Source: Flavobacteriales bacterium
GTDB lineage: Bacteria > Bacteroidota > Bacteroidia > Flavobacteriales_E > Vicingaceae
Length of the DNA stretch: 64,000 bases
Assembly (NCBI GenBank): GCA_002401955.1
Contig: NVUQ01000005.1
Location: 1-64,000 of the forward strand
Direction of reading: 5' to 3'
The notes under the pieces are model-generated. The model was not told the DNA's origin and searched no databases. It saw only the letters and a program-made list of their open reading frames with translations. Shown here in pieces: positions 28,504 to 46,319 of this stretch. Made by a program: the position numbers and the translations under genes. Position 1 is the first letter of the stretch. Each line of letters begins with the position of its first letter.

Positions 28504-30159
28504 TTGAAAAGTTATAAAGTTATAAAGTTAAAATCCTCCCTTAAGGGAGGATTTTTGGGTTCTTCCCAAAGAGGGGCTAAGAAATTCTTGTTTCTTGTTT
28601 CTTGCTTCTTATTTCTCTTTTCGGGAGAATCTATTGCTCAATCTCATATCAAAACAGAGAAGGGGAATAAGATTGAAATACTTAATGCTAATACTGGATT
28701 TTTTGAAGAGATAAATGGTGTGAAAATAAACCGTTTAATTGGTGATGTTCAGTTAAAACATGATGATGTATTAATGTTTTGTGATAGTGCATATATATAT
28801 AAAGGGACTAATACAATGGACGCCTATAGTAACGTTAAAATTACTCAAGGAGATTCATTACAAATGTTTGGTGATTCTTTAAAATACAATGGAAATACTA
28901 AGCTAGCTATTCTTAGAGGTGATATCCGTTTAATTAATAATGATGTAACACTCACCACTAACTTTTTAGATTACAACAGAACTACCAACATTGCTTACTA
29001 TTATAATGGAGGAACGATGGTAAATCAGAAAGAAAACAATACACTAACAAGTAAACAAGGTTATTATCATTCTGTAACTGAATCATTCTATTTTAAAGAA
29101 GATGTTGTTCTAATTAATCCAGAATATAAAATAGAAGCAGATACCTTAAATTACCAATCATCCTCTGAAATAGTTAATTTTTTAGGGCCAACAACAATTA
29201 CCAGTGATGATAATTTTATTTATACCGAAGATGGATGGTACAATACGGTAACTGATAAATCAAAATTCTATAAAAATGCCTATTTGTTTTCTGAAGATAA
29301 ATTAATAGAAGGAGATACCCTGTATTATGATCGAAATAAAGGATATGGAGAAATTATTTGTAATGCAGTTATTACAGATACCGTAGAAAATTTGATTTTA
29401 CAAGGAGATGTAGCTCACTTGTTTGAATTAAAAGACAGTGTGATGCTCACTCAAGAAGCATTAATGATGCAAATAACAGATGATGATACTTTATACATGC
29501 ATGCCGATACCTTTATTGTTTCTACACAATTTGTGGTGTATGATTCATTAATAAATGAAACAGATAGTGCTAAAATAAAAGGAGATACAGTAAGAACAAT
29601 GTTTGCTTATAACCATGCTAAATTTTATAAAAGCGACATGCAAGGTAAAGCAGATTCTATTGTTTATGAATTTTCTGATTCTACCATTAGCTTCTATCAT
29701 GATCCAATTATATGGTCAAAAGAAAATCAAATTACAGGAACATTTATCTATCTATTAATGTCTAATAATAAGGTGGATAGGATGTTTGTTAATGAAAATG
29801 CATTTATTATTTCTAAAGCAGATTCCTTACGAGATAATTACAATCAGATTAAAGGAGATAGTTTGGTAGCTTATTTTCATGAGCAAGAAATTCATAAAAT
29901 TGTAGTGACAGATAATTCTGAAACCATTTATTATGCCATAGATGATGATGGAAAATACATTGGCGTAAACAAAATGAAAGGGGAAGACATGCTTATCTTT
30001 TTAAAAGATAATGAAATTAACACCATTACTTTTATTAAAGACCCTGAAGGAACCATGTATCCGCTTAAAGATGTTTCACCTAAAGATGTAATTCTAAAAG
30101 GGTTTAGTTGGCGAATACTAGAACGACCAAACGATATGTTTGATATTTTTATTCAATAA
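28504..30159 (+). CDS. OstA/LptA-like outer-membrane biogenesis protein
   Basis: 551 residues rich in the short beta repeats of the OstA/LptA fold (for example DVLMFCDSAYIYKGTNTMDAYSNVKITQGDSLQMFGDSLKYNG). This family bridges periplasm and outer membrane for LPS transport; the Bacteroidota form is often next to purA-type housekeeping genes. The signal peptide is FLFLVSCFLFLFSGESIAQ. The start is a problem: no ATG precedes it. The track uses a TTG at 28504, which puts a perfect 26-bp palindrome inside the N-terminus; in-frame TTG codons further on, close to the signal peptide, are more plausible. The 5' end appears rearranged by repeat insertion. Ends at a strong hairpin shared with the convergent PKD gene. 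Confidence 0.75.
   Translation: MKSYKVIKLKSSLKGGFLGSSQRGAKKFLFLVSCFLFLFSGESIAQSHIKTEKGNKIEILNANTGFFEEINGVKINRLIGDVQLKHDDVLMFCDSAYIYKGTNTMDAYSNVKITQGDSLQMFGDSLKYNGNTKLAILRGDIRLINNDVTLTTNFLDYNRTTNIAYYYNGGTMVNQKENNTLTSKQGYYHSVTESFYFKEDVVLINPEYKIEADTLNYQSSSEIVNFLGPTTITSDDNFIYTEDGWYNTVTDKSKFYKNAYLFSEDKLIEGDTLYYDRNKGYGEIICNAVITDTVENLILQGDVAHLFELKDSVMLTQEALMMQITDDDTLYMHADTFIVSTQFVVYDSLINETDSAKIKGDTVRTMFAYNHAKFYKSDMQGKADSIVYEFSDSTISFYHDPIIWSKENQITGTFIYLLMSNNKVDRMFVNENAFIISKADSLRDNYNQIKGDSLVAYFHEQEIHKIVVTDNSETIYYAIDDDGKYIGVNKMKGEDMLIFLKDNEINTITFIKDPEGTMYPLKDVSPKDVILKGFSWRILERPNDMFDIFIQ
28530..28555. repeat. Perfect 26-bp palindrome
   Basis: AAAATCCTCCCTT directly followed by its reverse complement AAGGGAGGATTTT, then TTGGG. 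It can fold as a loop-less stem and may end purA transcripts. It lies inside the annotated N-terminus of the OstA-like frame. Related CCCTCC.../...GGAGGG palindromes occur at 46463-46478. Confidence 0.85.
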
Positions 30160-30190
30160 AAAAGCCGATGCTAAATAGCATCGGCTTCTG
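30156..30190. terminator. Bidirectional terminator
   Basis: Stem AAGCCGATGCT / AGCATCGGCTT with 4-nt loop and flanking A and T runs, between the convergent OstA-like and PKD genes. The stem sequence is the same as the terminator at 35316-35350. Confidence 0.9.
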
Positions 30191-30207
30191 TATAAAATTC
30201 ATATAGT

Positions 30208-31884
30208 TTATTCCTTAATAAATTTCTTGGTAATAACTCTATCGTTAGATTTTATTTGCAAGAAATAAATGCCTTTAGATAAATCACTAACATTAATTAG
30301 ATTACTATTATTGGTAATGGTTTTTATTGTTTTTCCAGTAATGTTGATAATACTAATCTCATCAATATTTAATTGACTACTAATAATTGTTAGTTGGTTT
30401 GATGATGGGTTTGGATAAAGACTAATATTAGAAGATGTTGTTACCTCATTATCAATTGAAGTAGCTAAGTTTGGATCTATGATGTTAATTTCAAATCCAG
30501 ACTGTTTAAATACTGTTCCTCCTGAACTTATTGAATCACAAAACGTATCTATACATCCGTTTCCATTATCTACAGTTAAACAAAGGTTAAATGGTCCTGC
30601 AGTTGTGTAAGTATAACTTGGAAATGCCTGGTTTGAGGTATTGCCATCATCAAAATCCCATAAATAAGTTAAATTACTACCTGTAGCACTATTTACAACG
30701 ATAACACCATTAAAGGAAGAGTCTGTATACATGGTAAACCCTGCATTGCAGGCTAACGGACTTGTGACTCCTGTGATATTAATTGTTGACACAGCATAGT
30801 CCATACTGCAAGTTGCTCCAGCTAAAGCAGATGAATCAGCGATAGCTAATACTACTGCATAGAATCCATTGGTACTAAATGTATGATTTGGATTAGAGAT
30901 TGGAGATAAACCACCGTCACCAAAACTCCAATGAGATAGAGTATAGCTGCCTGTTGATGTATTTGTAAAAGAATAGTTAGCATTTCCATTATCAACATGA
31001 GTGAAACTTGCGTTATTGTTACTGCTAGTACACGCTAAGCTTTGATATTGAACATCCCTTCTAGTTTCCCCAATTTTAACTCCATTTCTAAACTCTTCTA
31101 CTCGTACTGCAAATACAAAATTTCCGATTAAGTTCGGAGAAGCGCTTATTAACCCTGTGTTTTGATCAATCGACATGGCAGAAGCTCCTCCAACAATATT
31201 TCCTAAACTGTATCCGGCCGCCCAGTTAACATCATTGTAGGGGAAAATAGGAGCAGAATTCATCGCAGAAGCATTTAGAGGGGTTACTAAGGAGTAAACC
31301 AAAGAATCACCGTCTACATCGTTTACATTAAATTGAAAATATTTAGACGTGTTAACACATAAGTAAGCATCTAAAGGCAGAGAGCCCATATCTGGACTAG
31401 AGTTATTTATGGTTGAGGGGGATCCTGGGTCAGGGATTTCACAGTAGAAAGTCATTCCAGTAGAACTCGGGTTAGCTAGGTTGATAATGCTACTATTTCT
31501 ACAGCATGCATTGTACTCAATAAAATATCCATTGGAATTATCTGGAATAGTTACGTTTTGAGTAAATATACCTAAATCTACACATAGTCCAGCGGGAGAC
31601 CAACAGGCATCACCAAATGATAAAGGAGGGGTTATTGTAGGGTTAAGTATGGTCCAGTTTTGAACTGTAGTGTAGGTAAGACCATCGTGTAAATTGACAA
31701 GGATAGATGTTGGCATAGGTAATGATGTTGGTTGGCACGAGCGATATAATCTTACTTGAACTTGAAAATCATTTTGAGTTGGGCCAATCCATTTTACTGA
31801 AATGTCTCCACCAATAATATGTGTGGCGTTAGTATCTGGAGTTAGTAAAAAAAGAGGTATTAAAAGCAGTAATATTTTTTTCAT
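30208..31884 (-). CDS. PKD-domain protein with T9SS sorting signal
   Basis: 558 residues. Signal peptide MKKILLLLIPLFLLTPDTNA, then the HIIGGDISVKWIG block typical of large Bacteroidota surface proteins. An N-terminal beta region with paired cysteines (AYCNACCRNS-type segment EYNACCRNSS) is followed by two PKD-like domains (HWSFGDGGLSPISNPNHTF near 325 and YLWDFDDGNTSNQAFPSYTY near 410) and a type A T9SS domain ending KSNDRVITKKFIKE. Expected on the cell surface as an adhesin or matrix protein. It is a single gene between two strong hairpins or spacers. It does not share the LytTR-type upstream region of the array at 35-41 kb. Confidence 0.85.
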   Translation of the reverse strand: MKKILLLLIPLFLLTPDTNATHIIGGDISVKWIGPTQNDFQVQVRLYRSCQPTSLPMPTSILVNLHDGLTYTTVQNWTILNPTITPPLSFGDACWSPAGLCVDLGIFTQNVTIPDNSNGYFIEYNACCRNSSIINLANPSSTGMTFYCEIPDPGSPSTINNSSPDMGSLPLDAYLCVNTSKYFQFNVNDVDGDSLVYSLVTPLNASAMNSAPIFPYNDVNWAAGYSLGNIVGGASAMSIDQNTGLISASPNLIGNFVFAVRVEEFRNGVKIGETRRDVQYQSLACTSSNNNASFTHVDNGNANYSFTNTSTGSYTLSHWSFGDGGLSPISNPNHTFSTNGFYAVVLAIADSSALAGATCSMDYAVSTINITGVTSPLACNAGFTMYTDSSFNGVIVVNSATGSNLTYLWDFDDGNTSNQAFPSYTYTTAGPFNLCLTVDNGNGCIDTFCDSISSGGTVFKQSGFEINIIDPNLATSIDNEVTTSSNISLYPNPSSNQLTIISSQLNIDEISIINITGKTIKTITNNSNLINVSDLSKGIYFLQIKSNDRVITKKFIKE

Positions 31885-31962
31885 AATAGTTGAATAAGTA
31901 GGTTTCTAACCAGTAAATGTAATTAAAATTATTCTAGATGATAGAATTACATTTATTTTCAA

Positions 31963-34900
31963 ATGTTCAACAAAATATTGAGCTTATATTTTTGTAATAT
32001 TGATACCAAAATAAATTACTTGAAAGTAAATAAATTTATATACCTGATTTCGTCTATTTTAATGTTGATCTTTTACTCATGTTCAACAAAAGAAGAGAAT
32101 ACAAAAGCGAATAGTGAAAATGGACCGTTATTCAGTTTGTTATCACCTAAAAAAACCAATGTTACATTTTCTAATAATCTAACTGAAGATAACATTAACA
32201 ATAGTTTTAAGTACGAGTATTTTTACAATGGTGGAGGAGTTTCTTTAGGAGATATCAATAACGATGGATTAACGGATATCTATTTTACAGGTAATATGGT
32301 TTCAGATAAATTGTACCTGAACAAAGGAAACCTAGAGTTCGAAGATATTACAAGCACAGCCATTAAAACGGGTACAGAAGGTTGGCATTCTGGAACTACA
32401 ATGGCAGATGTTAATGGAGATGGGTTTTTAGATATTTATGTGTGTAGAGCAGGTTACTTAGGTGGGAATGAGTTAAAATCGAACTTGTTGTACATTAATA
32501 ATGGTGATTTAACTTTTACTGAAAAAGCACAAGAATATGGTTTGGCTGACACTTTATTGTCAACTCAAGCTTCTTTCTTTGATTATGATTTGGATGGGGA
32601 TTTAGATATGTATCTCTTAAATTTTCCAGATAAATTATTCAATATGCCCCTTAAAGAATATTATCAATTATTTAAAGAAGGCAAAAATCAATCGGATCAT
32701 TTTTATAGAAATGATAATGGAAAATTTACTGATATATCCTATCAAGCAAGGATAAGTAATCATGCTTTTGGTTTAGGAGTTAGTGTAGGCGATTTAAATG
32801 ATGATGGTTATCCAGATGTATATGTTTCTAACGATTATGAAGTTAGAGACTATATGTTTATGAATAATGGTAAGATATTTAATGAAGAATTACAACACCG
32901 AACAAAACACATTTCAAATTTTGGTATGGGTACCGATATTGCTGATTTTAATAATGATGGCGATATGGATATTATCGAAATGGATATGGCTTACCCATCA
33001 CATATTCGCTCTAAAAGAAATATGGCAAGTATGTCTTCAGAAAAATTTTGGAAAACAGTTCAGAATGGCAACTATTTTCAATACATGGTAAATACCTTAC
33101 AAATGAATAATGGTAATGGCACTTTTAGCGAAGTTGGACAACTTGCAGGAATAGCTAAAACTGATTGGAGTTGGGGAGTGTTATTTTCTGATTTTGATAA
33201 TGATGGTTTAAAAGACATTGTTATTACCAACGGATACAAAAGAGATTTAATGGATCGTGATTTCCAAACAGCATTCAAAAATAAAAGAGAAGAAAAGAAA
33301 AAAATGAATGTTTCTGAAGTCTTAAACCTTGCCCCTGTTACCAAGGTGAGTAATTATGTATTTAAAAATAAAGGCGATTTAGTTTTTGATAACCATACCG
33401 AAAAATGGGGCTTTGATAAAAAAGTAAATTCAAATGGAGTTGCTTATGCTGATTTGGATAACGATGGAGACATGGATATTGTAATAAATAATTTAGACGA
33501 GGTTGCTTTTATTTATGAGAATCAAACCAATCGAAAACAAAATTATTTAGCTATTCAGTTACAAGGAAATAGACAGAATAAATTTGCTATTGGAACAAAA
33601 GTTACGTTGCATACAGCCGAAGGAAAACAAGTTCAAGAGTTATTTTTAACAAGAGGCTTTCAATCATCTGTGGGTACTAAATTGAATTTTGGACTAGGAA
33701 ATAACAAACAAATAGATAAAGTTGAGGTTAGATGGCCCGATAGAAAAACAACAATAATTGAGCATGTTTCAGTTAACCAATTATTAAAAATCGATTATAC
33801 TAAATCAGAGTTCACTAATCCTATAACAGAACAGAAATCTCCTTTATTTTGGGCAATTGAAAACCCAATAGATTCTGGATTTAGACACCTAGAAAATCGA
33901 TTTAATGATTTTGATAGAGAGATTTTATTGCCTCATATATTATCACGACAAGGACCATGTATGGCTGTTGCAGATGTAAATAATGATGGCTTAGAAGATA
34001 TTTATATCGGTGGAGCTAAAGAATCAAACGGAAGCTTGTATATACAATTGTCTAATGGAAAATTTTCTTTAACTAATAAAACAGTTTTTGCTAAAGATAA
34101 GCTGAGTGAAGATTTGGGAGCGCTATTTTTTGATGCTGATGCTGATGGAGATATGGATTTATATGTTGCCAGTGGTGGAAATGATTATAGTGAACGCCAT
34201 AAATATTTTCAAGATAGGTTATACATTAATAACGGTAAAGGAGATTTTAAAAAATCAATAGGAGCACTTCCTAAGATGATTACTAGTACTAAAATTGTTA
34301 AAACTGCTGATTTTGATGGGGATGGAGATTTGGATCTTTTTGTTGGAGGTAGATTAGTTGCGGGTAAATACCCTACTGCTCCAAGAAGTTATTTGTTAGA
34401 AAATAACAACGGAAAATTTAAAGATGTAACAGAAAAATATTCTCGAGATTTATTGAAATTAGGAATGGTAACTGGAGCTGAATTTAATGATGTAAATGGT
34501 GATGGAAAAATTGATTTAACGATAGTAGGAGAGTGGATGGGATTCACAACGTTCTTAAATAAAGGAAAAAGTTTTGAGAAACAAGAAGTAAAACAAGAAA
34601 CAGAAGGATTGTGGTTTAGTTTGTTAGCTACCGATATTGATAAAGATGGAGATATGGATTTTATTGCAGGAAATTTAGGTGCTAATTCTAAATTTAAAGC
34701 TTCAAACGAAAAACCTTTTAATGTTTATGGAAATGATTTTGATAGTAATGGATCTTTTGACATTGTTTTAAGCGCTTATGAAGGTGAAACTAATTATCCA
34801 GTAAGAGGAAGAGAATGTACCTCGCAACAAATGCCTTTTATTACAGAAAAATGCCCAACCTATAAAGAATTTGCTGAAGCTGATATGAATGATCTTTATG

Positions 34901-35313
34901 GCAAAAACCTTGATGATGCATTACATTTAACAGCTCGTAATTTGTATTCGAGTATTTTTATTAATGATGGTAAAGGAAAATTTGAAATGAAACATTTGCC
35001 TAATTCAGCTCAAATTTCACCAATATTAGATATGATAATTGAGGATGTTAATAATGATGGAAATTTAGATGTAATAGCGGTAGGAAACATGTATGGAGCA
35101 GAAGTAGAAACTGTGCGATATGATGCTGGAAGAGGTATTTGTTTACTAGGAAATGGTAAGGGTGATTTTACTGCACTTTCTCCAAATAAAGCTGGTTTTA
35201 TGGCTTGGGACAATGCAAAAGCCCTCAAAAAAATAAAAGTAGGAAACAAATATGTTTACTTGATTGGAATTAATAACCGTAAACTAAAAGCTTTTATCAG
35301 ATCAAATAAATAA
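31963..35313 (+). CDS. FG-GAP / ASPIC-UnbV lipoprotein (CRTAC1-like)
   Basis: A 1116-residue beta-propeller protein. Many calcium-binding FG-GAP repeats (GDINNDGLTDIYFTGN, ADVNGDGFLDIYV, ADFDGDGDLDLFVGG) occupy both halves, with an ASPIC/UnbV domain in between at about 530-605 (NYLAIQLQGNRQNKFAIGTKVTLHTAEGK ... VEVRWPDRKTT). The N-terminus has a lipobox (LIFYSCSTKE). The ATG at 31963 gives a 40-residue signal; an in-frame TTG at 32020 gives a more usual 20-residue signal. Such proteins are abundant in marine Bacteroidota, often with carbohydrate uptake, but no SusCD pair is present here. Function unknown; surface-exposed lipoprotein likely. Confidence 0.8.
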   Translation: MFNKILSLYFCNIDTKINYLKVNKFIYLISSILMLIFYSCSTKEENTKANSENGPLFSLLSPKKTNVTFSNNLTEDNINNSFKYEYFYNGGGVSLGDINNDGLTDIYFTGNMVSDKLYLNKGNLEFEDITSTAIKTGTEGWHSGTTMADVNGDGFLDIYVCRAGYLGGNELKSNLLYINNGDLTFTEKAQEYGLADTLLSTQASFFDYDLDGDLDMYLLNFPDKLFNMPLKEYYQLFKEGKNQSDHFYRNDNGKFTDISYQARISNHAFGLGVSVGDLNDDGYPDVYVSNDYEVRDYMFMNNGKIFNEELQHRTKHISNFGMGTDIADFNNDGDMDIIEMDMAYPSHIRSKRNMASMSSEKFWKTVQNGNYFQYMVNTLQMNNGNGTFSEVGQLAGIAKTDWSWGVLFSDFDNDGLKDIVITNGYKRDLMDRDFQTAFKNKREEKKKMNVSEVLNLAPVTKVSNYVFKNKGDLVFDNHTEKWGFDKKVNSNGVAYADLDNDGDMDIVINNLDEVAFIYENQTNRKQNYLAIQLQGNRQNKFAIGTKVTLHTAEGKQVQELFLTRGFQSSVGTKLNFGLGNNKQIDKVEVRWPDRKTTIIEHVSVNQLLKIDYTKSEFTNPITEQKSPLFWAIENPIDSGFRHLENRFNDFDREILLPHILSRQGPCMAVADVNNDGLEDIYIGGAKESNGSLYIQLSNGKFSLTNKTVFAKDKLSEDLGALFFDADADGDMDLYVASGGNDYSERHKYFQDRLYINNGKGDFKKSIGALPKMITSTKIVKTADFDGDGDLDLFVGGRLVAGKYPTAPRSYLLENNNGKFKDVTEKYSRDLLKLGMVTGAEFNDVNGDGKIDLTIVGEWMGFTTFLNKGKSFEKQEVKQETEGLWFSLLATDIDKDGDMDFIAGNLGANSKFKASNEKPFNVYGNDFDSNGSFDIVLSAYEGETNYPVRGRECTSQQMPFITEKCPTYKEFAEADMNDLYGKNLDDALHLTARNLYSSIFINDGKGKFEMKHLPNSAQISPILDMIIEDVNNDGNLDVIAVGNMYGAEVETVRYDAGRGICLLGNGKGDFTALSPNKAGFMAWDNAKALKKIKVGNKYVYLIGINNRKLKAFIRSNK

Positions 35314-35315
35314 TT

Positions 35316-35350
35316 ATAAAAGCCGATGCTAAAATAGCATCGGCTTTTAT
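35316..35350. terminator. Bidirectional terminator
   Basis: Perfect 15-bp stem ATAAAAGCCGATGCT / AGCATCGGCTTTTAT with a 5-nt loop between convergent genes. Same core stem as the hairpin at 30162-30187. Confidence 0.92.
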
Positions 35351-35366
35351 AAAAAATAAATTTAGT

Positions 35367-37052
35367 TTACTCCTTAATAAATTTGCTATTGCTAATACCT
35401 TTTTCAGTTTGTATTTGTAAAAAGTATATTCCTTGTGTAAAATTTGATACATCAATAGTGTTGTTTGTTGGGATTACTGTTTTTAAAATTTTACCAGTGA
35501 TATCTAAAATTGAAATACTTTTAATTTGCTCAGATGTATTTAGTGTTAACTGAGAACTTACTGGGTTAGGGTAAATAGCTATTTTATTGTTTCCTATATA
35601 ATTGTTAATACTTACACTCTGGTTAGAAATTGTTATTGTAATACTGCCTGTAATTCCAGAGGCATCATTTGCTGTTGCAGTAACTGTTACAGTTCCGTTA
35701 GTTAAAGCAGATAGTAAACCACTTGTATTTATTGTAGCAGAACCTGTTCCGTTAGCTACACTCCAAGTATATGTTGTATCTGTTGCATTAGCTGGTAATA
35801 CAACTGCTTCCATTTGTAATGTACCACTATTTGTAGTAATTGTAGATGAACCACTTTGTCCTTGTACTGTTATTGAACCTATTAAGCTAATAGTATTGTT
35901 CCTGTAAGCAAAAGAAACTGCTCCGTTATTATTTCCAGTAATTAATAAATCATTGTCGTTATCGCCATCTATATCTGCAAATGCTACAGAACCAATATAG
36001 CCTCCAATAAACGGAGTTCCTGAAAGCTCTGTAAAAATACCGCTTCCATCATTTGTATAAAGTTTGGCTACATTTAGAGAAGAATTATTTATTCCTGCAA
36101 TTAATACATCTTGATCATTATCGTTATCTACATCTGCAAAGCTTATTTCACCATTTTCAACACCATCAAAAGTTGTTCCTGTAATCTCTGTAAAACTACC
36201 ACTTCCATTATTTGAATAAAGTTTCGCAATTCTTAGGTTTAAACTATTCTCACCCGTAATTAATACGTCTTGATCGTTGTCACCATCTATATCCGAAAAA
36301 GCAACAGAACCTTGATAAACTCCATCAAGAGTTGTTCCAAAAATCTGAGAAAAAGAACCGCTACCATTGTTTGAATAAAGTTTTGATATTTCTTGATTAG
36401 TACTATTTTGACCAGTAATTAGTAAGTCTTGGTCATTGTCTCCATCTATATCTGCAAACGCTACAGAACCACCAAAAACACCTTCAAATGGAGTACCTGT
36501 AGCCTCTGTAAAAGTACCACTTCCATCATTTGTATAAAGCTTGGCAACTTTTGTAGATGAGTTATTCCTTCCTGTAATTAATACATCTTGGTCATTATCA
36601 CCATCTACATCTGCAAAGGCTATAGAACCAGTATTAACTCCATCAAATGGAGTTCCTATAACCTCAGTAAAAATGCCACTACCATCATTTGTATAAAGTT
36701 TGGCTATTGATTGAAAAGAACTATTCCAACCTGTAATTAATACATCCTGGTCGTTATCGCCATCTATATCTGCAAAAGCGATGGAACTTTTAAATACTCC
36801 AACAAAAGTTGTGCCTAAAACTTCTGAAAAAGAACCTGTACCATCATTTGTGTAAAGTTTACTTAGTTTTTGGTTAGAAGCACTGTTTCCTGTAATTAAC
36901 ACATCTTGGTCGTTATCGCCATCTATATCTGCAAAAGCGATGGAGCTGCTATATACTGCAACAAAATCACTTGGGGTAATTTGAGACCATTGTGCCTTAG
37001 CCCCAAAGCCAAATGCTGTAATTGTGATAATACTTAGTAAGATTCTTTTCAT
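35367..37052 (-). CDS. FG-GAP repeat T9SS surface protein
   Basis: 561 residues. Signal peptide MKRILLSIITITAFGFGAKAQ, nearly identical at the DNA level to that of the next gene. Seven tandem repeats of about 51 residues follow (FADIDGDNDQDVLITG ... KLYTNDGSGSFTE ... GTPFDGV), each with a DIDGDNDQD calcium-loop motif; they should form a beta-propeller. A bacterial Ig-like (BIG2) domain lies at about 395-470 (YTWSVANGTGSATINTSGLLSALTNGTVTVTATA), then a T9SS domain ending KGISNSKFIKE. The first gene, in map order, of a three-member array; preceded by LytTR-type site A. Likely a surface adhesin. Confidence 0.85.
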   Translation of the reverse strand: MKRILLSIITITAFGFGAKAQWSQITPSDFVAVYSSSIAFADIDGDNDQDVLITGNSASNQKLSKLYTNDGTGSFSEVLGTTFVGVFKSSIAFADIDGDNDQDVLITGWNSSFQSIAKLYTNDGSGIFTEVIGTPFDGVNTGSIAFADVDGDNDQDVLITGRNNSSTKVAKLYTNDGSGTFTEATGTPFEGVFGGSVAFADIDGDNDQDLLITGQNSTNQEISKLYSNNGSGSFSQIFGTTLDGVYQGSVAFSDIDGDNDQDVLITGENSLNLRIAKLYSNNGSGSFTEITGTTFDGVENGEISFADVDNDNDQDVLIAGINNSSLNVAKLYTNDGSGIFTELSGTPFIGGYIGSVAFADIDGDNDNDLLITGNNNGAVSFAYRNNTISLIGSITVQGQSGSSTITTNSGTLQMEAVVLPANATDTTYTWSVANGTGSATINTSGLLSALTNGTVTVTATANDASGITGSITITISNQSVSINNYIGNNKIAIYPNPVSSQLTLNTSEQIKSISILDITGKILKTVIPTNNTIDVSNFTQGIYFLQIQTEKGISNSKFIKE

Positions 37053-37080
37053 AGTATTTTGCTTTAAATGAATAATAATT

Positions 37081-37150
37081 TAAAACTACCCACTACTTTA
37101 AGTTTTTACCGAAATAACTTTACGGGGAGCAATTTGAGTTTACGAACGGT
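37081..37150 (-). promoter_or_regulatory. LytTR-type operator A and promoter
   Basis: Reading the minus strand, ACCGTTCGTAAA starts at 37150 and a second half-site GCTCCCCGTAAA starts exactly 20 bp on. After the 35-bp operator come 27 bp, then TAGTTTTA at 37088-37081 (TAnnTTTG-like). The first half-site fits the published LytTR consensus [TA][AC][CA]GTTN[AG][TG] at all nine positions. Controls the FG-GAP T9SS gene. Confidence 0.75.
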
Positions 37151-37230
37151 AAATTTGTACTGTTTAAATCTAAATATTGCAACTTTAATTAGCCTATATT
37201 TGGTGGTACAAATGATATCTTTATTCAATA

Positions 37231-37264
37231 AAAAAGCCGAGCTCCATTTACTGAAGCCAGGCCA
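37231..37264 (-). terminator. Cassette A hairpin
   Basis: Imperfect GCC...GGC stem (GGAGCTCGGC arm followed by TTTTTT on the minus strand) that should end the transcript of the leucine-rich-repeat gene. It is the weakest of the three cassette hairpins because of two mismatches. Confidence 0.6.
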
Positions 37265-37275
37265 TTCTTAAAAAA

Positions 37276-37496
37276 AACTAACTCTACTTAGTCTTTTATA
37301 AAACGACTGTGGGTTAACCCGTTATCAGTTTTTATTTCTAAAATGTATAATCCTTTAATTAAGTGAGCTACATTAATAGTCGTATTAGTTAATCTCTTAG
37401 TTTCAACTATTTTTCCTGTAACATCAATAATTTTAATCGTTTCTATATTTTCTTCTGTATCTATTGTGATTTGATAAGATGTTGGGTTTGGGTAAA
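37276..37496 (-). repeat. C-terminal-domain duplication, copy 1
   Basis: 221 bp covering the 3' flank AACTAACTCTACTTA and the T9SS-domain coding sequence. Copy 2 is 38821-39041; I find a single difference (T/C, in the AAGTGAGCnACATT segment). Such identity next to unrelated upstream domains implies recent duplication or gene conversion. Confidence 0.95.
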
Positions 37497-38595
37497 TGCT
37501 TATGTTTTGAGTTGCTATTTCATTAATACTTGTTGCACAATTGGTGCTAAAACTTGCTCCAGCATCAATATTTGTCCAATTCGTTGTACTGTATGAAGCG
37601 TCATCTACATTGATGCAGGTTAGGCTAGGATTATTCGTTGCCTTAAAATTATTACTTATATAGTTAGTGTTATTACCATTTGCTACATCCAATATAACTA
37701 GCTGATTGTCATGACAAAGCAATTCTGTCATCATAGCATTCAGTGTTAAGTCTAGAGTTGTTATCGTGTTTCCATTACAGTATAGAGAGGATAAGTTTGT
37801 ATTAAGGGAAACGTCAACAGCGGATAATTGATTATCAGCACATAATATTGCCGTCAAACCTGGATTCGACACGGTGCTTATGGTTGACAACTGGTTCTGA
37901 CCACAAGATAAATATATTAAATCTACATTCGATGTAATATCCAAAGAGGAGATGCTATTATCTTCACAACCTAACTTTGTCAAAATGGTATTATTTGAAA
38001 CTGACAAGCTTGATAATAAATTGTTTCCGCAATACAATATATCTAATACTGTATTAGATAATAAACCTATCGTTGAGACTTGATTGTTTCTAAAATCTAA
38101 TTCATCTAGCACATTGTTTGAAGTTACATTAAGACTGGTTAAAAGGTTGTCTGAACAAACTAATTTGGTCAATAAAGTATTTGTTGAAATATCCAAATTC
38201 GTTAATTGATTCCCCCAACATAATAATTGAGTGAGCGCGGTATTGGTTGACACGTTTAAACTCGTTAATTGGTTTGATTGACACGCTAACACTACCAATG
38301 CTGTATTTGAGCTAACATCTAGATTAGTTAGAGAGTTCCCACTACAATAAAAACTGAGTACTGATGTGAAAGCTTCTAATCCCGTAAAATCAGTAATGGA
38401 TAAATTAGGACACCAAATACCCCCTGTAAAAGAAGTTGCTTCAATTACTTGTATTTCTGAATCACCACTAGTATTAATGGCTGCATTCCCAACCAAATAG
38501 GCTTTAAAGTTAGCATCTGGTATGTTTACGTTTTGTGCCTTAGCCCCAAAGTCAAATGCTGTAATTGTGATAATACTTAGTAAGATTCTTTTCAT
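37288..38595 (-). CDS. Leucine-rich-repeat T9SS surface protein
   Basis: 435 residues. Signal peptide MKRILLSIITITAFDFGAKAQ, then about a dozen repeats of 21 residues with the pattern LxCxxNQLTSLNVSTNTALTxL (for example LVCSDNLLTSLNVTSNNVLDEL), a bacterial leucine-rich-repeat fold with a Cys or Asn ladder. A type A T9SS domain (SIYPNPTSYQITIDTEENIETIKI ... TDNGLTHSRFIKD) ends it. Its last 221 bp, counting a short 3' flank, differ from those of the LamG gene by one base, and its 5' end matches the FG-GAP gene. So the gene is a mosaic with a unique middle. Preceded by LytTR-type site B. Confidence 0.85.
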   Translation of the reverse strand: MKRILLSIITITAFDFGAKAQNVNIPDANFKAYLVGNAAINTSGDSEIQVIEATSFTGGIWCPNLSITDFTGLEAFTSVLSFYCSGNSLTNLDVSSNTALVVLACQSNQLTSLNVSTNTALTQLLCWGNQLTNLDISTNTLLTKLVCSDNLLTSLNVTSNNVLDELDFRNNQVSTIGLLSNTVLDILYCGNNLLSSLSVSNNTILTKLGCEDNSISSLDITSNVDLIYLSCGQNQLSTISTVSNPGLTAILCADNQLSAVDVSLNTNLSSLYCNGNTITTLDLTLNAMMTELLCHDNQLVILDVANGNNTNYISNNFKATNNPSLTCINVDDASYSTTNWTNIDAGASFSTNCATSINEIATQNISIYPNPTSYQITIDTEENIETIKIIDVTGKIVETKRLTNTTINVAHLIKGLYILEIKTDNGLTHSRFIKD

Positions 38596-38623
38596 AGTAT
38601 TTTGCTTTAAATGAATAATAACT

Positions 38624-38693
38624 TAAAATTAGCGACAACCTGAATGGTTTACCGAAATAACTTTACGGGGAGCAATTTGAGTTTATGAACGGT
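38624..38693 (-). promoter_or_regulatory. LytTR-type operator B and promoter
   Basis: ACCGTTCATAAA at 38693, GCTCCCCGTAAA 20 bp on, 27 bp, then TAATTTTA at 38631-38624. The sequence between operator and -7 element differs from copy A yet has the same length. Controls the leucine-rich-repeat gene. Confidence 0.75.
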
Positions 38694-38772
38694 AAATTTG
38701 TACTGTTTAAATCTAAATATTGTAACTTTAATTATCCGATATTTGGTGGCACAAATGATATCTTTATTCAAT

Positions 38773-38808
38773 AAAAAAGCCGAACTCCATTTACTGAAGC
38801 TCGGCCTT
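38773..38808 (-). terminator. Cassette B hairpin
   Basis: GGCCGAGCTTCAG / TGGAGTTCGGCTTTTTT on the minus strand, a stem with two G-U type pairs and a T-run, after the LamG gene. Confidence 0.75.
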
Positions 38809-38820
38809 TATATGAAAAAC

Positions 38821-39041
38821 AACTAACTCTACTTAGTCTTTTATAAAACGACTGTGGGTTAACCCGTTATCAGTTTTTATTTCTAAAATGTATAATCCTT
38901 TAATTAAGTGAGCCACATTAATAGTCGTATTAGTTAATCTCTTAGTTTCAACTATTTTTCCTGTAACATCAATAATTTTAATCGTTTCTATATTTTCTTC
39001 TGTATCTATTGTGATTTGATAAGATGTTGGGTTTGGGTAAA
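38821..39041 (-). repeat. C-terminal-domain duplication, copy 2
   Basis: Partner of 37276-37496, same length and one base different. The 15-bp 3' flank AACTAACTCTACTTA also occurs at 41028-41042, next to cassette C, where the neighbouring gene is no longer a T9SS gene. Confidence 0.95.
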
Positions 39042-40803
39042 CAGAAAAGCTAGTTGCAGCCGTTTGTTCATTTATTCCTGTTGATGTTACCGTAACTGTA
39101 GCTGTTTGGGTCATTTGAATGCTCCAAGAAGGACCTCCAGTACTACGACAAGGAATTGCTGCTGAGCTAACTACTTTCCAGTCTGTTGCAGGATCCATGT
39201 TCGTAAGTGTAGCATCATTGTTACCAAGCTCATCAGTTGCAGTTAAGCCACTTGTATTATTAAATTTATAAAAAGCTTCTAAACCACTTTCAGTACCTGT
39301 TAAACAACTGTACATATTAGCATTAATTTCGGAAGAAGTTCTTGCAGTACTCCAAATTCTATAATCATCTAACTGACCTTTAAAATATTTAGGTCCCCAG
39401 CTTGGTGTAAACGCATTACTTTTAATATATCCTATGTTAATTTCAGCACTTGTTGACATTAAAGGTGCAGCATTAGATTGGCTACCTTGAGAAACACCAT
39501 CATAAAATACTTTTATAGTAGAACCATCAAACACTACAGCCAAATGGTACCAAACGTTGTTAGGTGGGTCAGGAAATGATGCACCTTGAACTGCCCCTCC
39601 ATTACCTCTATTATGCACAACAACCATATCATTTGTTCCTTTTTGCACATATACTTCAATATCACTTCCTACAGCATCTCCAGCAAAAAATATAGGGTAA
39701 TATGCAGCATTTCCTGGTAGTGGAGATTTTACCCAAGCTTCTAAACTATAAGAATTGTTGTATTGAAAATTTGTAGGAATAGTAGTAGATAAATAATCAT
39801 TAGAGCCATCAAAATCTAACCCATTACCAATACCTGTTCCACCCGGAATGGCAGCAGACTCAACGATAATCCAGTCTGTTGCAGGATCCATGTTGGTGAG
39901 AGTAGCATCGTTAGATCCTACTTCATCAGTTGCAGTTGAACCAGTCGCATCATTAAATGTATAAAAAGTTTCTAATCCAGTTTCAGAACCAGTTAAAGAA
40001 TTATGCATGTTAGCATTAATTTCTGATGATGTTCTTGCTGTACTCCATATTCTATAATCGTCTAATTTTCCTGTAAAAGCTGCAGGGTTCCCTCCTCCAG
40101 CACTCCAAGGACTACTAAAAATATCTCCAATCGTAATGCTAGCTCCACTCGTTTGAAGAGGTGTAACATTAGATTGGATACCTTGAGAAACACCATCGTA
40201 AAATGCCTCTATGGTAGAACCATTAAAAACTACAGCTAAATGATACCAAACGTTGTTAGGTGGATCAGGAAATGTTGCACCTTGAAGTGTCCCTCCATTA
40301 CCTCTATTATGAGCAACAACTAAGTCGTTAGTATTTTTTTGCACATAAATCTCAATATCATCGGCTACCGCTGTTCCAACAAAAAATATAGGGGAGTGAC
40401 CTGTATTTCCTGGGAGTGGTGATTTTACCCAAGCTTCAATAGTATATGAAGTGTTGTATGGGAAGTTTGTTGGTAAAGAAGCTGTAAGGTAATCATTACT
40501 TCCATCAAATTCTAAACCAACACTGTTAGTACTTTCGGTGTAAATATTAAATGTTTCTGTGGCTGTTAATATTCCTGTGTTAAACGATATATCGTTGCCA
40601 TTACCAGGAATTGGTCCAGCTATTACTGTATTACTACTGTTTCTTAAAGAGTAATTTACTCCTTGCTGAGAACCAGTTGTAGAAATTGTACTGCTTTGTG
40701 ATGCTGTTATTGAAGCAGGTGTTGCAGTTACAGCTACATCTGTAATTTGAGCATTTATATTAAATGCTGAAATAATTAACATACTTAGTAAAATTTTTTT
40801 CAT
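38833..40803 (-). CDS. Two-LamG-domain T9SS surface protein
   Basis: 656 residues. Signal peptide MKKILLSMLIISAFNINAQ. Two concanavalin/LamG domains at about 95-310 and 330-550 are internal duplicates (GLEFDGSNDYLTASLPTNFPYN / GLDFDGSNDYLSTTIPTNFQYN; GSTIEAFYDGVSQG / GSTIKVFYDGVSQG; DDYRIWSTARTSSEINANM in both). LamG domains usually bind sugars or proteins. The T9SS domain is identical at the protein level to that of the leucine-rich-repeat protein. Preceded by LytTR-type site C. Likely a surface binding protein in the same regulon. Confidence 0.87.
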   Translation of the reverse strand: MKKILLSMLIISAFNINAQITDVAVTATPASITASQSSTISTTGSQQGVNYSLRNSSNTVIAGPIPGNGNDISFNTGILTATETFNIYTESTNSVGLEFDGSNDYLTASLPTNFPYNTSYTIEAWVKSPLPGNTGHSPIFFVGTAVADDIEIYVQKNTNDLVVAHNRGNGGTLQGATFPDPPNNVWYHLAVVFNGSTIEAFYDGVSQGIQSNVTPLQTSGASITIGDIFSSPWSAGGGNPAAFTGKLDDYRIWSTARTSSEINANMHNSLTGSETGLETFYTFNDATGSTATDEVGSNDATLTNMDPATDWIIVESAAIPGGTGIGNGLDFDGSNDYLSTTIPTNFQYNNSYSLEAWVKSPLPGNAAYYPIFFAGDAVGSDIEVYVQKGTNDMVVVHNRGNGGAVQGASFPDPPNNVWYHLAVVFDGSTIKVFYDGVSQGSQSNAAPLMSTSAEINIGYIKSNAFTPSWGPKYFKGQLDDYRIWSTARTSSEINANMYSCLTGTESGLEAFYKFNNTSGLTATDELGNNDATLTNMDPATDWKVVSSAAIPCRSTGGPSWSIQMTQTATVTVTSTGINEQTAATSFSVYPNPTSYQITIDTEENIETIKIIDVTGKIVETKRLTNTTINVAHLIKGLYILEIKTDNGLTHSRFIKD

Positions 40804-40830
40804 GTTTTTAGTTTTAAATGAATAATAATT

Positions 40831-40900
40831 TAAAACTACCTACTACTTTAAGTTTTTATCGAAATAACTTTACGGGGAGCAATTTGAGTTTACGAACGGT
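40831..40900 (-). promoter_or_regulatory. LytTR-type operator C and promoter
   Basis: ACCGTTCGTAAA at 40900, GCTCCCCGTAAA 20 bp on, 27 bp, then TAGTTTTA at 40838-40831. Controls the LamG gene. Confidence 0.75.
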
Positions 40901-40980
40901 AAATTTGTACTGTTTAAATCTAAATATTGTAACTTTAATTAGCCGATATTTGGTGGCACAAATGATATCTTTATTCAATA

Positions 40981-41016
40981 AAAAAGCCGAACTCCATTTA
41001 CTGAAGCCCGGCCTTT
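40981..41016 (-). terminator. Cassette C hairpin
   Basis: GGCCGGGCTTCAG / TGGAGTTCGGCTTTTT on the minus strand, after the 449-residue protein gene. Confidence 0.7.
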
Positions 41017-41059
41017 CTTTGAAAAAAAACTAACTCTACTTAATAATTTGAATTAAATT

Positions 41060-42409
41060 TTATTTGGCATGTTCACATTTTAATTTAAACGGTGCTCCTA
41101 AAATTCCATCAAAATAAACTGTTAAATATTTACTACCATCATATTCTTGTGCAAAAACTGCATCATGATAGCTACAAAGTCCATCAGGTCTAGTCATTAC
41201 AATAACTCCTTTAATTGCTCTTGCTGTTTGAATACCACTAACTTTATGTCTTCTAATTCCCCAATCAGCACCAGAAAAATATACTCTTGTAAGTGTTTCT
41301 TTCCAGCTGTATTTTGCTGCAAAACCCTTAGCAGCTGTTAATGCTTGAGCTTCTAATTTAGCATCTACTAAACCTCTTTTTGGAAGTCTTCTGTTGGCGA
41401 TGTTTTTACTTTCTTTATCAGCTCTTCGCTTATCTTCAGCCGTTTTAATCTTTTTAGTCCAGGCAGCAACTTTGGAGTCTATTTCTTTTTGCTCACTTTC
41501 ACTGTTCAATAAACCTCTTACCACTTGTTTGTCCATAGCATACAGGTTGTATTGATCGTATTTTCCCCAAAGCTGTGTTCCTAACGCACCACTTTTGTAT
41601 CGTGTCCAAATTAATACCCCAGGTTTATCAACATAAATATATCTGTGTAAATTAAGACTAGCATCGGTATAAACATCTACTCCAGCAATTTTACTAAATT
41701 CAGGCATGTGAATAAAAGTAGTTGTTCCTCCTGCCTTTCTTAAAATTTTCTTTTCAGCTCCTGCTTCAAACGTTATTTCAATTTCACCGTAAGCTTTCCC
41801 TGAAAATTTAACAGGAGTTGCAGCAGAATAAGTTCCATTACCTCCTTTAGATGGCCCTGATGATGAAGGTGCTAAAATCTTATTAGATAAATCAATGGCA
41901 TAAGCTTCTGCTTTTGCTTTAGTCATCGATTTTGCTTTCGATGCATCTGAGCTATAAAAGTTACTAAATGCAAACTTACCAAACGGTGCTTTACCTAATT
42001 GTTTGTCAGGCATTACCGAAACCCAGCTGTTTTCATCATATTCAATTACATAAATACCTGCTGTAGTAAAATATATTTTTTTACTTAACATTTTACTCGG
42101 CTCATCTTGATAAGTGTAGGGTGCTCCATTAATGGCGATAATCTTTTTGCCATTAAGTTCTCCTTCTTCCGCCTGCACTTTAGTTTTTCCTCTTTCAGCT
42201 TCCATTAAATAAAGGGTTGTACCTCCTTTAGTAGTAGAGCCTGTTGTTGTACTTGTTTTAGCAGGAGTACTAGTTTTAGCAGGAGTACTTGATTTAGCTT
42301 TAGCAGCAGCAGCTTTAGCCTTTAGTTTGTCCTTGAAAGATTGAGCGTAACAATCATTTACTGTTAGTGATGTTGTTGCAATCAATGTTGCAATAATTAG
42401 ATTTTTCAT
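41060..42409 (-). CDS. Secreted protein of unknown family
   Basis: 449 residues with signal peptide MKNLIIATLIATTSLTVNDCYAQ. A low-complexity linker rich in Lys, Ala, Ser and Thr (AAAAKAKSSTPAKTSTPAKTSTTTGS) follows, then a beta-rich globular part (TTLYLMEAERGKTKVQAEEGELNGKKIIAING...) and a Lys-rich helical stretch near 315-340. The end contains YHDAVFAQEYDG and two late Cys residues (LCSYHD, LKCEHAK). No T9SS domain and no family I recognise. It has its own LytTR-type operator with the same geometry as the T9SS genes, with a perfect -7 element, so it is a member of the regulon. It may occupy the place of a lost T9SS gene. Confidence 0.7.
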   Translation of the reverse strand: MKNLIIATLIATTSLTVNDCYAQSFKDKLKAKAAAAKAKSSTPAKTSTPAKTSTTTGSTTKGGTTLYLMEAERGKTKVQAEEGELNGKKIIAINGAPYTYQDEPSKMLSKKIYFTTAGIYVIEYDENSWVSVMPDKQLGKAPFGKFAFSNFYSSDASKAKSMTKAKAEAYAIDLSNKILAPSSSGPSKGGNGTYSAATPVKFSGKAYGEIEITFEAGAEKKILRKAGGTTTFIHMPEFSKIAGVDVYTDASLNLHRYIYVDKPGVLIWTRYKSGALGTQLWGKYDQYNLYAMDKQVVRGLLNSESEQKEIDSKVAAWTKKIKTAEDKRRADKESKNIANRRLPKRGLVDAKLEAQALTAAKGFAAKYSWKETLTRVYFSGADWGIRRHKVSGIQTARAIKGVIVMTRPDGLCSYHDAVFAQEYDGSKYLTVYFDGILGAPFKLKCEHAK

Positions 42410-42786: not shown

Positions 42787-44661
42787 TTAAGCTTCTTTAA
42801 ACTTCATTTTAAACATAGTGCCAGGTTCTTTTAATCTTTCCATTGTTCCATTTAACTGTTCTGTAAAAATTTCAATTAACTCCTGTCCTAAAGAATGTAA
42901 ATTGTTTTCCTCATTTTTTGACATACCAATACCGTTATCGCCAATAATCATCTCAAATTCTCTTTTCCCCATCTCTTTTAATTCAAGAACAACTGTTCCT
43001 GTGTTTTGTTCATTAAAAGCATATTTAAAAGAGTTGGTCATTATTTCATTAATAATCAATCCAAGAGGAACAATAGTTTCAGATTTAAATTTTACGTTTG
43101 GAATGCTCAGTTTTAAATCGATGTTATTCTGAAGTTTATGAGATGCTGCAATTTTTTTAACCAATAGATTGAGATAATCACTAATATCTATCTTAATAAA
43201 ATCTTTAGACTGATACATGCTTTCATGTATACTCGCCATTGTAAGTATGCGGTTTTGACATTCTTCAAACATCGATACAATTTTGGTATCATCTATCTTG
43301 TTCGATTGAAGCCTTAAAAGACTTCTAATAATTTGCATGTTATTTTTTACACGATGGTGAATTTCTTGCATCATATTTTCACGCATTTCTTTCTCTTTCT
43401 GTATGATACTTTTTTGTTTAGTAACTACTCGATATCGATAAAAAATAAAACCTATTGATATCACTAATAGACTAATTCCTAAACAAAGAAGAAGTAGTAA
43501 TGATTTACCGTTAGAAATTTTTAAGTTCTTAGCCTCAAGTTGAGCTTTGGAAACAGCTTCACTATGGGCAAGTATTATACTATCTTCAATAACTCTATTG
43601 TCATATTTATATTGATATTCTTGCTTAATTATGTCCTCTTTGCTTTGCTGATTTTTAATACTGTCAGACATTAGCCTATTTAACTGTATCATTTTTAAAG
43701 CGTTTTTATAATCACCTTTTTTAGAATATGCTAAGTATAAACTTTTAGAAGAAGATTCTATTTGTTTTACAAAACCAGATAACTGGGCTATTTCTAAAGC
43801 TATTTTGGCATGTTTTATTGCTTTTTGCTTGTTGTCAAGAGCTAAGTAAACACTACTAATTGCAATTTCAGTACTAGAGATACCCTCTTTGTCGTTAATT
43901 TTCTCAAAGATGATTAAACTTTCATGATGTAATGTTAGTGCTTTTTTGAATTGCCCTTCTTTCTTATAAACTTTACCTAGTTTGTTCGTAGCACTTGCAA
44001 ATCCAAGTCTGTTTCGATTATTATATGTTCCATCTGTATTTTTTATCGTTTTATACAATTCGATGGATTTCTCTAAAAATATTTTAGCAGAATCTAATAT
44101 TCCTTCACTAAAATAAATGTCTCCTATATTGTCGAGGGTAATAGCTAATCCTCTCTTATTATTACTGGCTTTTTTTATAACTAGACTTTTACTATAATAC
44201 TCAATAGCTTTTTCTAAATCTCCTTGTTCCTTATGTATCATTCCTAAATTGTTTAACACAGAGGAGATGCCAGGTTTATATCCTTTTTCTCCTTTGTTAT
44301 CTATAGAATTTTCATAAAGTGATAATGCAAGTAAATAATATTTTGTAGCTTTTTTGTAATCTCCTCTTAAATAGAAAGATGCACCCTGTGTTGTTCTTGC
44401 ACTTGCCATATTTCTTTTAAGCCCTTTTGATTTGGCGTAGTTATAATATTTTTCTGCATAATAAAATGCACTATCCGGATTTGAAAACAGGTAAACATCC
44501 CAAGCTAATTTATCCAATGCAATCATTCGATTTGCATCTAGTTCAGATCCATCTTTCCAAATAGCATATAAACTATCACGTTTTTTATCGGTTTCATTAG
44601 GCCTGTCCTGTGAAATGGAGAGGATAGGAATTAACAACAATAAGAAAAAAAAACACTTCAT
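42787..44661 (-). CDS. TPR sensor histidine kinase (HisKA_2 type)
   Basis: 624 residues. Signal peptide MKCFFFLLLLIPILSIS, then about seven tetratricopeptide repeats in the periplasm (residues 60-340; SVLNNLGMIHKEQGDLEKAIEYYSKSL is typical), a transmembrane helix at about 385-407 and a cytoplasmic kinase. The phospho-acceptor motif EIHHRVKNNMQIIRSLLRLQS is of the HisKA_2/HWE-like class, and the ATPase domain has NEIMTNSFKYAF and GDNGIGM. No response regulator is adjacent; the only regulator in the window is the LytTR protein at 56.5 kb, which normally pairs with LytS-type kinases. It sits between the regulon genes and the lanthipeptide transporter genes. Confidence 0.85.
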   Translation of the reverse strand: MKCFFFLLLLIPILSISQDRPNETDKKRDSLYAIWKDGSELDANRMIALDKLAWDVYLFSNPDSAFYYAEKYYNYAKSKGLKRNMASARTTQGASFYLRGDYKKATKYYLLALSLYENSIDNKGEKGYKPGISSVLNNLGMIHKEQGDLEKAIEYYSKSLVIKKASNNKRGLAITLDNIGDIYFSEGILDSAKIFLEKSIELYKTIKNTDGTYNNRNRLGFASATNKLGKVYKKEGQFKKALTLHHESLIIFEKINDKEGISSTEIAISSVYLALDNKQKAIKHAKIALEIAQLSGFVKQIESSSKSLYLAYSKKGDYKNALKMIQLNRLMSDSIKNQQSKEDIIKQEYQYKYDNRVIEDSIILAHSEAVSKAQLEAKNLKISNGKSLLLLLCLGISLLVISIGFIFYRYRVVTKQKSIIQKEKEMRENMMQEIHHRVKNNMQIIRSLLRLQSNKIDDTKIVSMFEECQNRILTMASIHESMYQSKDFIKIDISDYLNLLVKKIAASHKLQNNIDLKLSIPNVKFKSETIVPLGLIINEIMTNSFKYAFNEQNTGTVVLELKEMGKREFEMIIGDNGIGMSKNEENNLHSLGQELIEIFTEQLNGTMERLKEPGTMFKMKFKEA

Positions 44662-45038: not shown

Positions 45039-46319
45039 CTACTTATCCAATACTTGTCTAAATTTGTTAAAGATCCTTTCTAATAATCTTAAATCTTCGG
45101 TAATAATTTCGGCAGTTCCTGCCATATCTGGTTTGTAACTTAGTGTTTTATTGTAAGTGCTGGTTAAACCATCAGAGAGTTTTACCTGAACAAAATAACC
45201 CTCTTTTCCAGATATTTGAGAGATACTAACGATTGTTCCTGTTAACTGCCCGTATTCCTGATAGGGATAGTTATCTAACTTCATTTTTACTTCTTGACCA
45301 ACTGTAATTTTACCATAACCTTGAGGTGCTATTTTAACGTTTCCAATATAAGCCTGATTACTTGGAACAACAGCAAATAAGGGTTCTTGATCAGAAATGT
45401 ATTGATTGGTTGTAATGGCTTTTAAATACGAAATCTTCCCCTTAAATGGAGCAGTTATCGTAAAGTTTTGTTGCCAGCTTTGAGTATAACTTTTTAAGGA
45501 ATTACGAGCAGATTTAATGTTGTTTTTTAACCCTCTGATTTTATCATCATGGCTTTTGTTTAATTCATTTTGCTGTTTTAAATAGTTGGCTACAGTAATT
45601 TTATGTTGTACGTAAGTTTTTTGACTGTTTAATAGTTGTTCCTTTTTTCTAAAGTATTCACTTTGGTTATTAAAAAATTCATTTTTAGAGATTACCTTTT
45701 TATAATACAAGGAACTATCTGCATTAAATTTCTGGTCAGCGTTTTGTATTTCTTGTCTTAACAAATTTAATTGTGACTTAGTAATCTTAGCTAATCTATC
45801 GTTGTAATTAATTTGTAGGGCAATGTTTTTTAAGCTGTTCTTGTAAAAGTTATCAGTAGTAATTTCGTGGTATTCTTTTAAGTTATTGTGTAAGCTGTTA
45901 AATGTTGTTTGAGCTTCACCTAATATTCCTATTTTTTCTAATAAGGGTAATATTGTTGCAGTATTATCAAACGTAAAATTGTTTATCAACGTATTTAGGC
46001 TATCAATGGTTTCTTTATTAGTAGGATTGGTTATTACAGCAATGGTTTGCCCTTTTTTTACGGTTGTATTGTCTTTATGATAAAGTTCTTGTATATAACC
46101 AGTAGTTTTACTAATGAGTTTAGCAGGAGGTTGTTCTGTAGTAAGCGTTACTTGTCCGGGTATAATATCAGGGTATTTTATAAACCAAGATATAAATACG
46201 AGCATTACAATTATTCCAAAAATTAAGGAAATACCCCAACGTATCATCCAATTAGGTACGTGAGATAAAATCTCTTGAACTTCATCACTACGAATTTCTA
46301 TTTCTTTATTCTCTGGCAT
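45039..46319 (-). CDS. HlyD-family membrane fusion protein of the lanthipeptide exporter
   Basis: 426 residues. A cytoplasmic N-terminus (about 27 residues), one transmembrane helix (MIRWGISLIFGIIVMLVFISWFI), then a lipoyl half (LISKTTGYIQELYHKDNTTVKKGQTIAVI), a long coiled-coil hairpin (about 90-285) and the second half of the lipoyl/beta-barrel region (TAPFKGKISYLKAI, AGTAEIITEDLRLLERI). It should link the C39 ABC transporter in the inner membrane to an outer-membrane channel so that the matured peptide leaves the cell. The gene follows the transporter gene after a 183-bp spacer with hairpins. No TolC-like gene is in the window. Confidence 0.85.
   Translation of the reverse strand: MPENKEIEIRSDEVQEILSHVPNWMIRWGISLIFGIIVMLVFISWFIKYPDIIPGQVTLTTEQPPAKLISKTTGYIQELYHKDNTTVKKGQTIAVITNPTNKETIDSLNTLINNFTFDNTATILPLLEKIGILGEAQTTFNSLHNNLKEYHEITTDNFYKNSLKNIALQINYNDRLAKITKSQLNLLRQEIQNADQKFNADSSLYYKKVISKNEFFNNQSEYFRKKEQLLNSQKTYVQHKITVANYLKQQNELNKSHDDKIRGLKNNIKSARNSLKSYTQSWQQNFTITAPFKGKISYLKAITTNQYISDQEPLFAVVPSNQAYIGNVKIAPQGYGKITVGQEVKMKLDNYPYQEYGQLTGTIVSISQISGKEGYFVQVKLSDGLTSTYNKTLSYKPDMAGTAEIITEDLRLLERIFNKFRQVLDK

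Follow-up and report, generated by a model that had tools for sequence, protein, structure and literature searches.

The window analysed here is a stretch of 64,000 nucleotides from a Flavobacteriales bacterium (assembly GCA_002401955.1, contig NVUQ01000005.1, positions 1 to 64,000), which in our numbering is contig C122 of genome G000, a draft of 4.19 Mb in 150 contigs that is 83% complete. It contains an array of three genes for predicted cargo proteins of the type IX secretion system (T9SS), co-oriented on the minus strand in the order 38833-40803, 37288-38595, 35367-37052. A preliminary description of this DNA had seen in them a layout of constant ends and unrelated middles, suited to the swapping of surface-exposed domains by recombination. 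Other genomes enter the comparisons as G008, the nearest relative found, G009, G012 and G022. The genes of the array, together with the repeated DNA at their junctions (J1 to J3), are as follows, LRR standing for leucine-rich repeats.

35367-37052, minus strand: T9SS cargo gene 3 (FG-GAP), 561 aa; signal peptide, FG-GAP propeller repeats, Big_2, type A sorting domain.
36990-37052, minus strand: DNA for the signal peptide of gene 3, matching that of the LRR gene at 62 of 63 bases.
36990-37496, minus strand: junction repeat J1 in full, approximately 507 bp; sorting domain, terminator/promoter, signal peptide.
37053-37287, minus strand: intergenic part of J1; terminator and promoter/leader.
37288-37496, minus strand: DNA for the sorting domain of the LRR gene, matching that of the LamG gene at 208 of 209 bases, with homology from the TAC codon of YPNP.
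37288-38595, minus strand: T9SS cargo gene 2 (LRR), 435 aa; signal peptide, leucine-rich repeats, type A sorting domain.
38533-39041, minus strand: junction repeat J2, the second full copy, offset by 1,543-1,545 bp from J1.
38596-38832, minus strand: intergenic part of J2; terminator with a compensated stem, and a diverged block of approximately 25 bp near the start codon.
38833-40803, minus strand: T9SS cargo gene 1 (LamG), 656 aa; signal peptide, two LamG/ConA-like domains, type A sorting domain.
40740-41042, minus strand: junction J3; terminator/promoter copy (intergenic part 40804-41042) and diverged signal-peptide DNA, without a sorting domain.

All three genes are complete, each with its own upstream region and terminator, and their products resemble known type A cargo of the T9SS (TIGR04183 / PF18962) in having a Sec signal peptide with glutamine at position +1, a type A sorting domain and a modular middle. 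In particular, they scored 52.4, 52.8 and 49.8 bits in a profile search with TIGR04183, for which the curated cut-off is 23, and each contains a Por_Secre_tail domain. Their starts, judged by eye, have the signal-peptide-like form MK(R/K)ILL...A-Q, and glutamine at +1 of the signal-peptidase site is, according to PMC10653852, the 'Q-rule' residue of Bacteroidota. As they have both a Sec signal peptide and a sorting domain, all three products should leave the cell and be attached at its surface. The middles (FG-GAP_3 with Big_2, LRR_4, and two Laminin_G_3 domains) are unrelated, as had been claimed, and show no match to one another in blastp at E<1e-3. What sets the array apart from the usual T9SS cargo of G000, where a profile search finds at least 150 type A sorting domains that are usually approximately 58% alike in DNA, is that its neighbours have near-identical sorting-domain DNA and a common control cassette.

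While the preliminary description had treated the ends and the control region as separate cassettes, the common DNA is actually a single contiguous repeat of approximately 507 bp, which spans the gap between genes and takes in the sorting domain of the upstream gene, its stop codon, a terminator hairpin, the upstream region, the start codon and the signal peptide of the gene downstream. J1 and J2, both complete and in direct orientation, flank the LRR gene exactly, and the homology between them runs from the TAC codon of YPNP to just past the CAA codon for the Q of the predicted signal-peptidase site. The sharing described earlier is borne out, as are the coordinates and the genes. Namely, 1 of 63 bases differs between the signal-peptide DNA of the FG-GAP and LRR genes (98.4% identity), and the single difference in 221 bases of sorting-domain DNA resolves into 1 mismatch in 209 coding bases (GTA/GTG, synonymous; 99.5% identity) plus 12 bases past the stop codon. 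The terminator-promoter region is indeed common to the three neighbours (copies at 37053-37287, 38596-38832 and 40804-41042, 90.6-95.2% identical). However, only this part of the cassette extends to all three, since the third copy has signal-peptide DNA that is just approximately 75% alike and lacks the sorting domain, the latter because its upstream neighbour at 41060-42409 is not a T9SS cargo. The sorting domain of the FG-GAP gene, for its part, is its own, and approximately 67% like those of the LRR and LamG genes.

What is more, divergence along the repeat is uneven. J1 and J2 differ at 22 of 235 intergenic positions, a mismatch rate that departs from that of the sorting-domain DNA with p=6.6e-6. 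Over the intergenic part, J1 is closer to J3 (95.2%) than to J2 (90.6%), with J2 and J3 at 91.4%, and this ranking reverses in the signal peptide, where J1 and J3 are 75% identical as against 98.4% for J1 and J2. The longest exact common runs are 127 and 93 bp. Given such patchy identity and the reversed ranking of pairs, the copies are therefore not explained by one duplication followed by even drift, but by repeated local copying. The pattern needs recombination between copies, and it suggests that neighbouring genes recently underwent ectopic gene conversion or recombination. Under concerted evolution via gene conversion in tandem families, neighbouring copies are unusually alike, tracts are patchy and edges are sharp. 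The array has these properties, with the difference that here they are limited to ends and control regions, while the middles have no homology at all. That the tracts end at domain edges is to be expected without any design, because conversion requires homology. In this sense, the locus illustrates a known type of process particularly well.

How exceptional is the sharing of sorting domains in this genome? Of the 150 T9SS genes found in G000, we extracted 147 and compared all pairs among them. For pairs with unrelated middles, the median identity was 0.617 between adjacent genes versus 0.579 for other pairs (p=4e-6), and an identity of at least 75% was reached by 8 of 27 adjacent pairs versus 6 of 10,313 non-adjacent ones. 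The window pair, at 99.5%, is the most extreme adjacent pair, and the best of the 10,313 non-adjacent pairs reaches 91%; the sharing seen in the window is far beyond chance. In G009, a genome of the same genus, sorting-domain identities of 83% and 75% occur between adjacent genes whose middles are unrelated. The LRR middle has its closest relatives in C36_7735 and C49_59143, which are 46-50% identical to it in amino acids, and relatives of this kind are scattered across the genus. Their sorting domains are just 58% like that of the LRR gene in the window, which is 99.5% like its neighbour's, and the LRR end therefore came from, or went to, the neighbour. Across 46 genomes of the family, the LamG gene (orthologues at E<=1e-80) and the FG-GAP middle (close relatives) have no counterpart, or only a partial one. 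Within G000, the junction cassette is confined to the array, except for a 28-bp terminator match at 30141-30168. The other 13 genomes of the genus lack it and match only short sorting-domain or signal-peptide fragments. A plasmid origin of the junction was rejected, as there was no match in 72,556 plasmid records. Whole-gene tandem duplication as the source of the window array was likewise rejected, on account of the absence of homology between the middles.

It is our belief that the locus is probably a tandem array of recent origin, whose T9SS type A genes are each transcribed on their own, and in which neighbours recombine and convert their junctions and no dedicated switching machinery is involved. 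Such an array would have grown by duplication, or by homologous insertion at junctions of sorting domain, promoter and signal peptide, and RecA-type unequal crossing-over, along with gene conversion between neighbours, would keep re-copying the junction. The conversion tracts would be confined to the homology, with YPNP on one side and the cleavage site of the signal peptide on the other as their limits, and the middles would stay unrelated. One would then expect whole surface-protein genes to be gained, lost and occasionally re-joined. In particular, the model predicts loss or duplication of a 1.54-kb unit: an in-silico crossover between J1 and J2, placed in the sorting domain, the intergenic part or the signal peptide, removes the LRR gene (1,543-1,545 bp) and leaves the FG-GAP and LamG reading frames intact. 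This may be of wider importance. Namely, a Bacteroidota genome can hold more than 100 T9SS cargo genes, and how new ones gain their export and expression signals is rarely visible. The locus shows a likely route, by which a new middle acquires working ends from a neighbour via common junction DNA.

That said, a number of points weigh against this explanation. The species is represented by a single draft genome, in 150 contigs and 83% complete, and no recombination event was observed. The adjacency statistic takes in short open reading frames and tandem duplicates (C134, C3, C103); once these are removed, approximately 5 of 24 adjacent pairs reach 75% sorting-domain identity (C122, C99, C49, C3, C36), and ordinary tandem duplication accounts for other apparent cases of sharing (C99, C103, C134). 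No sharing was seen in three adjacent pairs with unrelated middles in G022 (approximately ten long contigs), or in two such pairs in G012. Finally, selection on the sorting domain could reduce its divergence, and yet selection alone is unlikely to be responsible, because even synonymous change is nearly absent.

Would the same features not be expected of a platform for swapping, with the constant ends as homology arms between which a new middle, incoming or paralogous, takes the place of the old one? If middles were indeed swapped between strains, this would amount to a mechanism of surface diversification in uncultured bacteria, and several observations fit. The edges of homology match the edges of functional domains exactly on both sides, and the nearest relatives of the LRR middle bear unrelated sorting domains. 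In G009, two T9SS genes on contig C166 (L225) display the reverse of the window pattern, a 94-residue middle stretch being 96% identical and the sorting domains 62% alike, in a pair whose first gene is cut by the contig start. There is also a precedent, the sole one found in the literature on T9SS domain shuffling or gene conversion: in P. gingivalis, T9SS adhesins vary through domain rearrangement and through allelic exchange between strains (PMC5266723). The proteins Kgp, RgpA and HagA of that species are like those of the window in being T9SS surface proteins diversified via recombination of homologous segments. However, there it is adhesin domains inside the proteins that are shared, and the variants were seen by comparing strains, whereas here the ends are shared and one genome of the species is at hand.

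The layout would permit such an exchange; still, we consider swapping unlikely. The part of the original proposal that concerned constant export and expression ends around unrelated middles stands, but the part that read them as a layout for exchange is not supported, as no allele was found in which the same ends enclose a different middle and the cassette is absent from the congeners. The FG-GAP gene retains its own sorting domain. No inverted pairs of at least 25 bp occur in 33-44 kb, and no recombinase was recognised by eye among the open reading frames of the window or by profile search in the scanned neighbours of the array. Silent, incomplete donor copies are missing as well, all genes of the array being complete and the junction having no further copy in G000 beyond the short terminator match, and there is no attC site at the array.

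The nearest relative differs by the presence or absence of whole genes. The comparison with G008 concerns the following features.

30160-41050, unstranded: block missing in G008, with a PKD-T9SS gene, an ASPIC/UnbV gene and the three-gene array, between the end of an ostA-like gene and the anchor.
41060-42409, minus strand: anchor gene, 449 aa; 86% DNA identity to the G008 copy.

In G008, the end of the ostA-like gene (window 28504-30159) adjoins the anchor gene directly, and beyond the far side of the anchor there are two other LamG T9SS genes, joined by a junction repeat of their own that consists of sorting domain plus leader and is 74% identical over 306 bp. The histidine-kinase gene at 42787-44661 is also missing from the G008 contig. 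With the block gone and other T9SS genes beside the same anchor, the neighbourhood therefore turns over by whole genes, and what the comparison displays is gene gain and loss, not exchanged middles. The anchor protein itself, which looks secreted, has no match in Pfam or NCBIfam, and is matched in 7 of the 14 genomes of the genus, its own included, in some cases by short partial sequences only. A broader version of the same idea, a mix-and-match platform whose junctions of sorting domain, promoter and signal peptide act as homology arms, such that complete or partial modules are captured, lost and re-joined within the species, appears to us rather unlikely.

Alternatively, the LRR gene may have been acquired horizontally as a unit, one crossover at an existing junction having duplicated that junction on both sides. 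The 507-bp direct repeats that flank the gene exactly, as well as the scatter of LRR relatives in the genus, are what one would expect from such a single insertion. However, it predicts even divergence, while the sorting domain and the intergenic part differ markedly in this respect, and the intergenic part of J1 is nearer to J3 than to J2, such that a single insertion also needs later conversion. As no donor array was found either, we regard this scenario as quite improbable. Very improbable, in turn, is that a short-read metagenome assembly simply misplaced near-identical ends: the assembly does look like a short-read metagenome-assembled genome, judging by its 150 contigs, and the exact runs of up to 127 and 93 bp would lend themselves to such an error, but each copy carries differences of its own, no reading frame is broken, ordinary reads are long enough to cover the longest exact run, and the array sits within 64 kb of contig. 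Finally, the notion that the intergenic cassette is a site for site-specific recombination, of the integron attC or the invertase type, may practically be set aside, for even though attC-like sites do lie between T9SS genes on other contigs of the same genome, neither family of them matches C122, the RYYYAAC/GTTRRRY core ends are not seen at the junction, the junction folded as single-stranded DNA is not unusual (z -1.6), and the genome, at 83% completeness, has no IntI over the cut-off. This notion is largely refuted, and the integron attC reading of the window array was rejected.

The arrays on those other contigs deserve a description of their own. Sites of approximately 100 bp that have attC-like ends (TTTGCCAACA...GTTGGCAAA, with a GTTRRRY core) lie between co-oriented T9SS genes on C36 (L092), C4, C24, C27, C48, C62, C91, C101 and C3, and a DNA search returned 31 full or partial matches in G000. 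On C36, there are seven co-oriented T9SS genes, several of them followed by a TTTGCCAACA...GTTGGCAAA site. A second attC-like family, with sites of approximately 230 bp that are 79-93% alike, occurs on C66, C117, C73, C62, C36, C3 and C4, including the following copies.

C66 (L104), 350-582, 2018-2249 and 2653-2752: second attC-like family.
C117, 77-294 and 765-968: second attC-like family.

In integrons, the first bases of a cassette pair with the 5' core of its own site. On C66, this rule holds, as the cassette start GTTGTAGG is the exact reverse complement of the start of its end site, CCTACAAC. Judging by their sites, the arrays of the 100-bp family look like integron cassette arrays, of the kind termed clusters of attC sites lacking integron-integrases (CALIN), with T9SS proteins among the cargo. 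In this genome, which is 83% complete, no match to TIGR02249 exceeds the IntI cut-off. Such arrays resemble the window array in that interchangeable genes are separated by repeated sequence, but the window junction differs from them in having no attC features and in taking in coding ends. They are a stronger lead than the window array, and separate from it.

As for the control region, it had been described as a terminator, an operator and a promoter. The terminator is well supported by folding, the stems of J2 and J3 being unbroken (z -6.0 and -6.6, respectively) and that of J1 slightly damaged (z -3.1). The operator, on the other hand, is not established. The candidate motif ACCGTTCGTA, which we take to resemble LytTR/AlgR-type sites, has its sole window matches in the three junction copies when one mismatch is allowed, where approximately one would be expected by chance, and the three are not independent evidence, because they are copies of one repeat. 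Sigma-70-type promoter matches are at the level of shuffled sequence, and Bacteroidota promoters differ from the sigma-70 type. Elsewhere in the window, 53632-57294 encodes a large sensor-type protein, read by eye as a propeller plus histidine kinase and followed by a LytTR-like response regulator; this pair is a possible candidate for a regulator acting on the ACCGTTCGT motif of the array cassettes.

The window region 45039-53369 holds a lanthipeptide-type gene cluster, with an HlyD-like adaptor, a peptidase-containing ABC exporter, a LanB-like dehydratase (TIGR03891 domain), a LanC-like cyclase (match to the LanM C-terminus) and, at 53151-53369, a candidate precursor of 72 aa with a GG leader.

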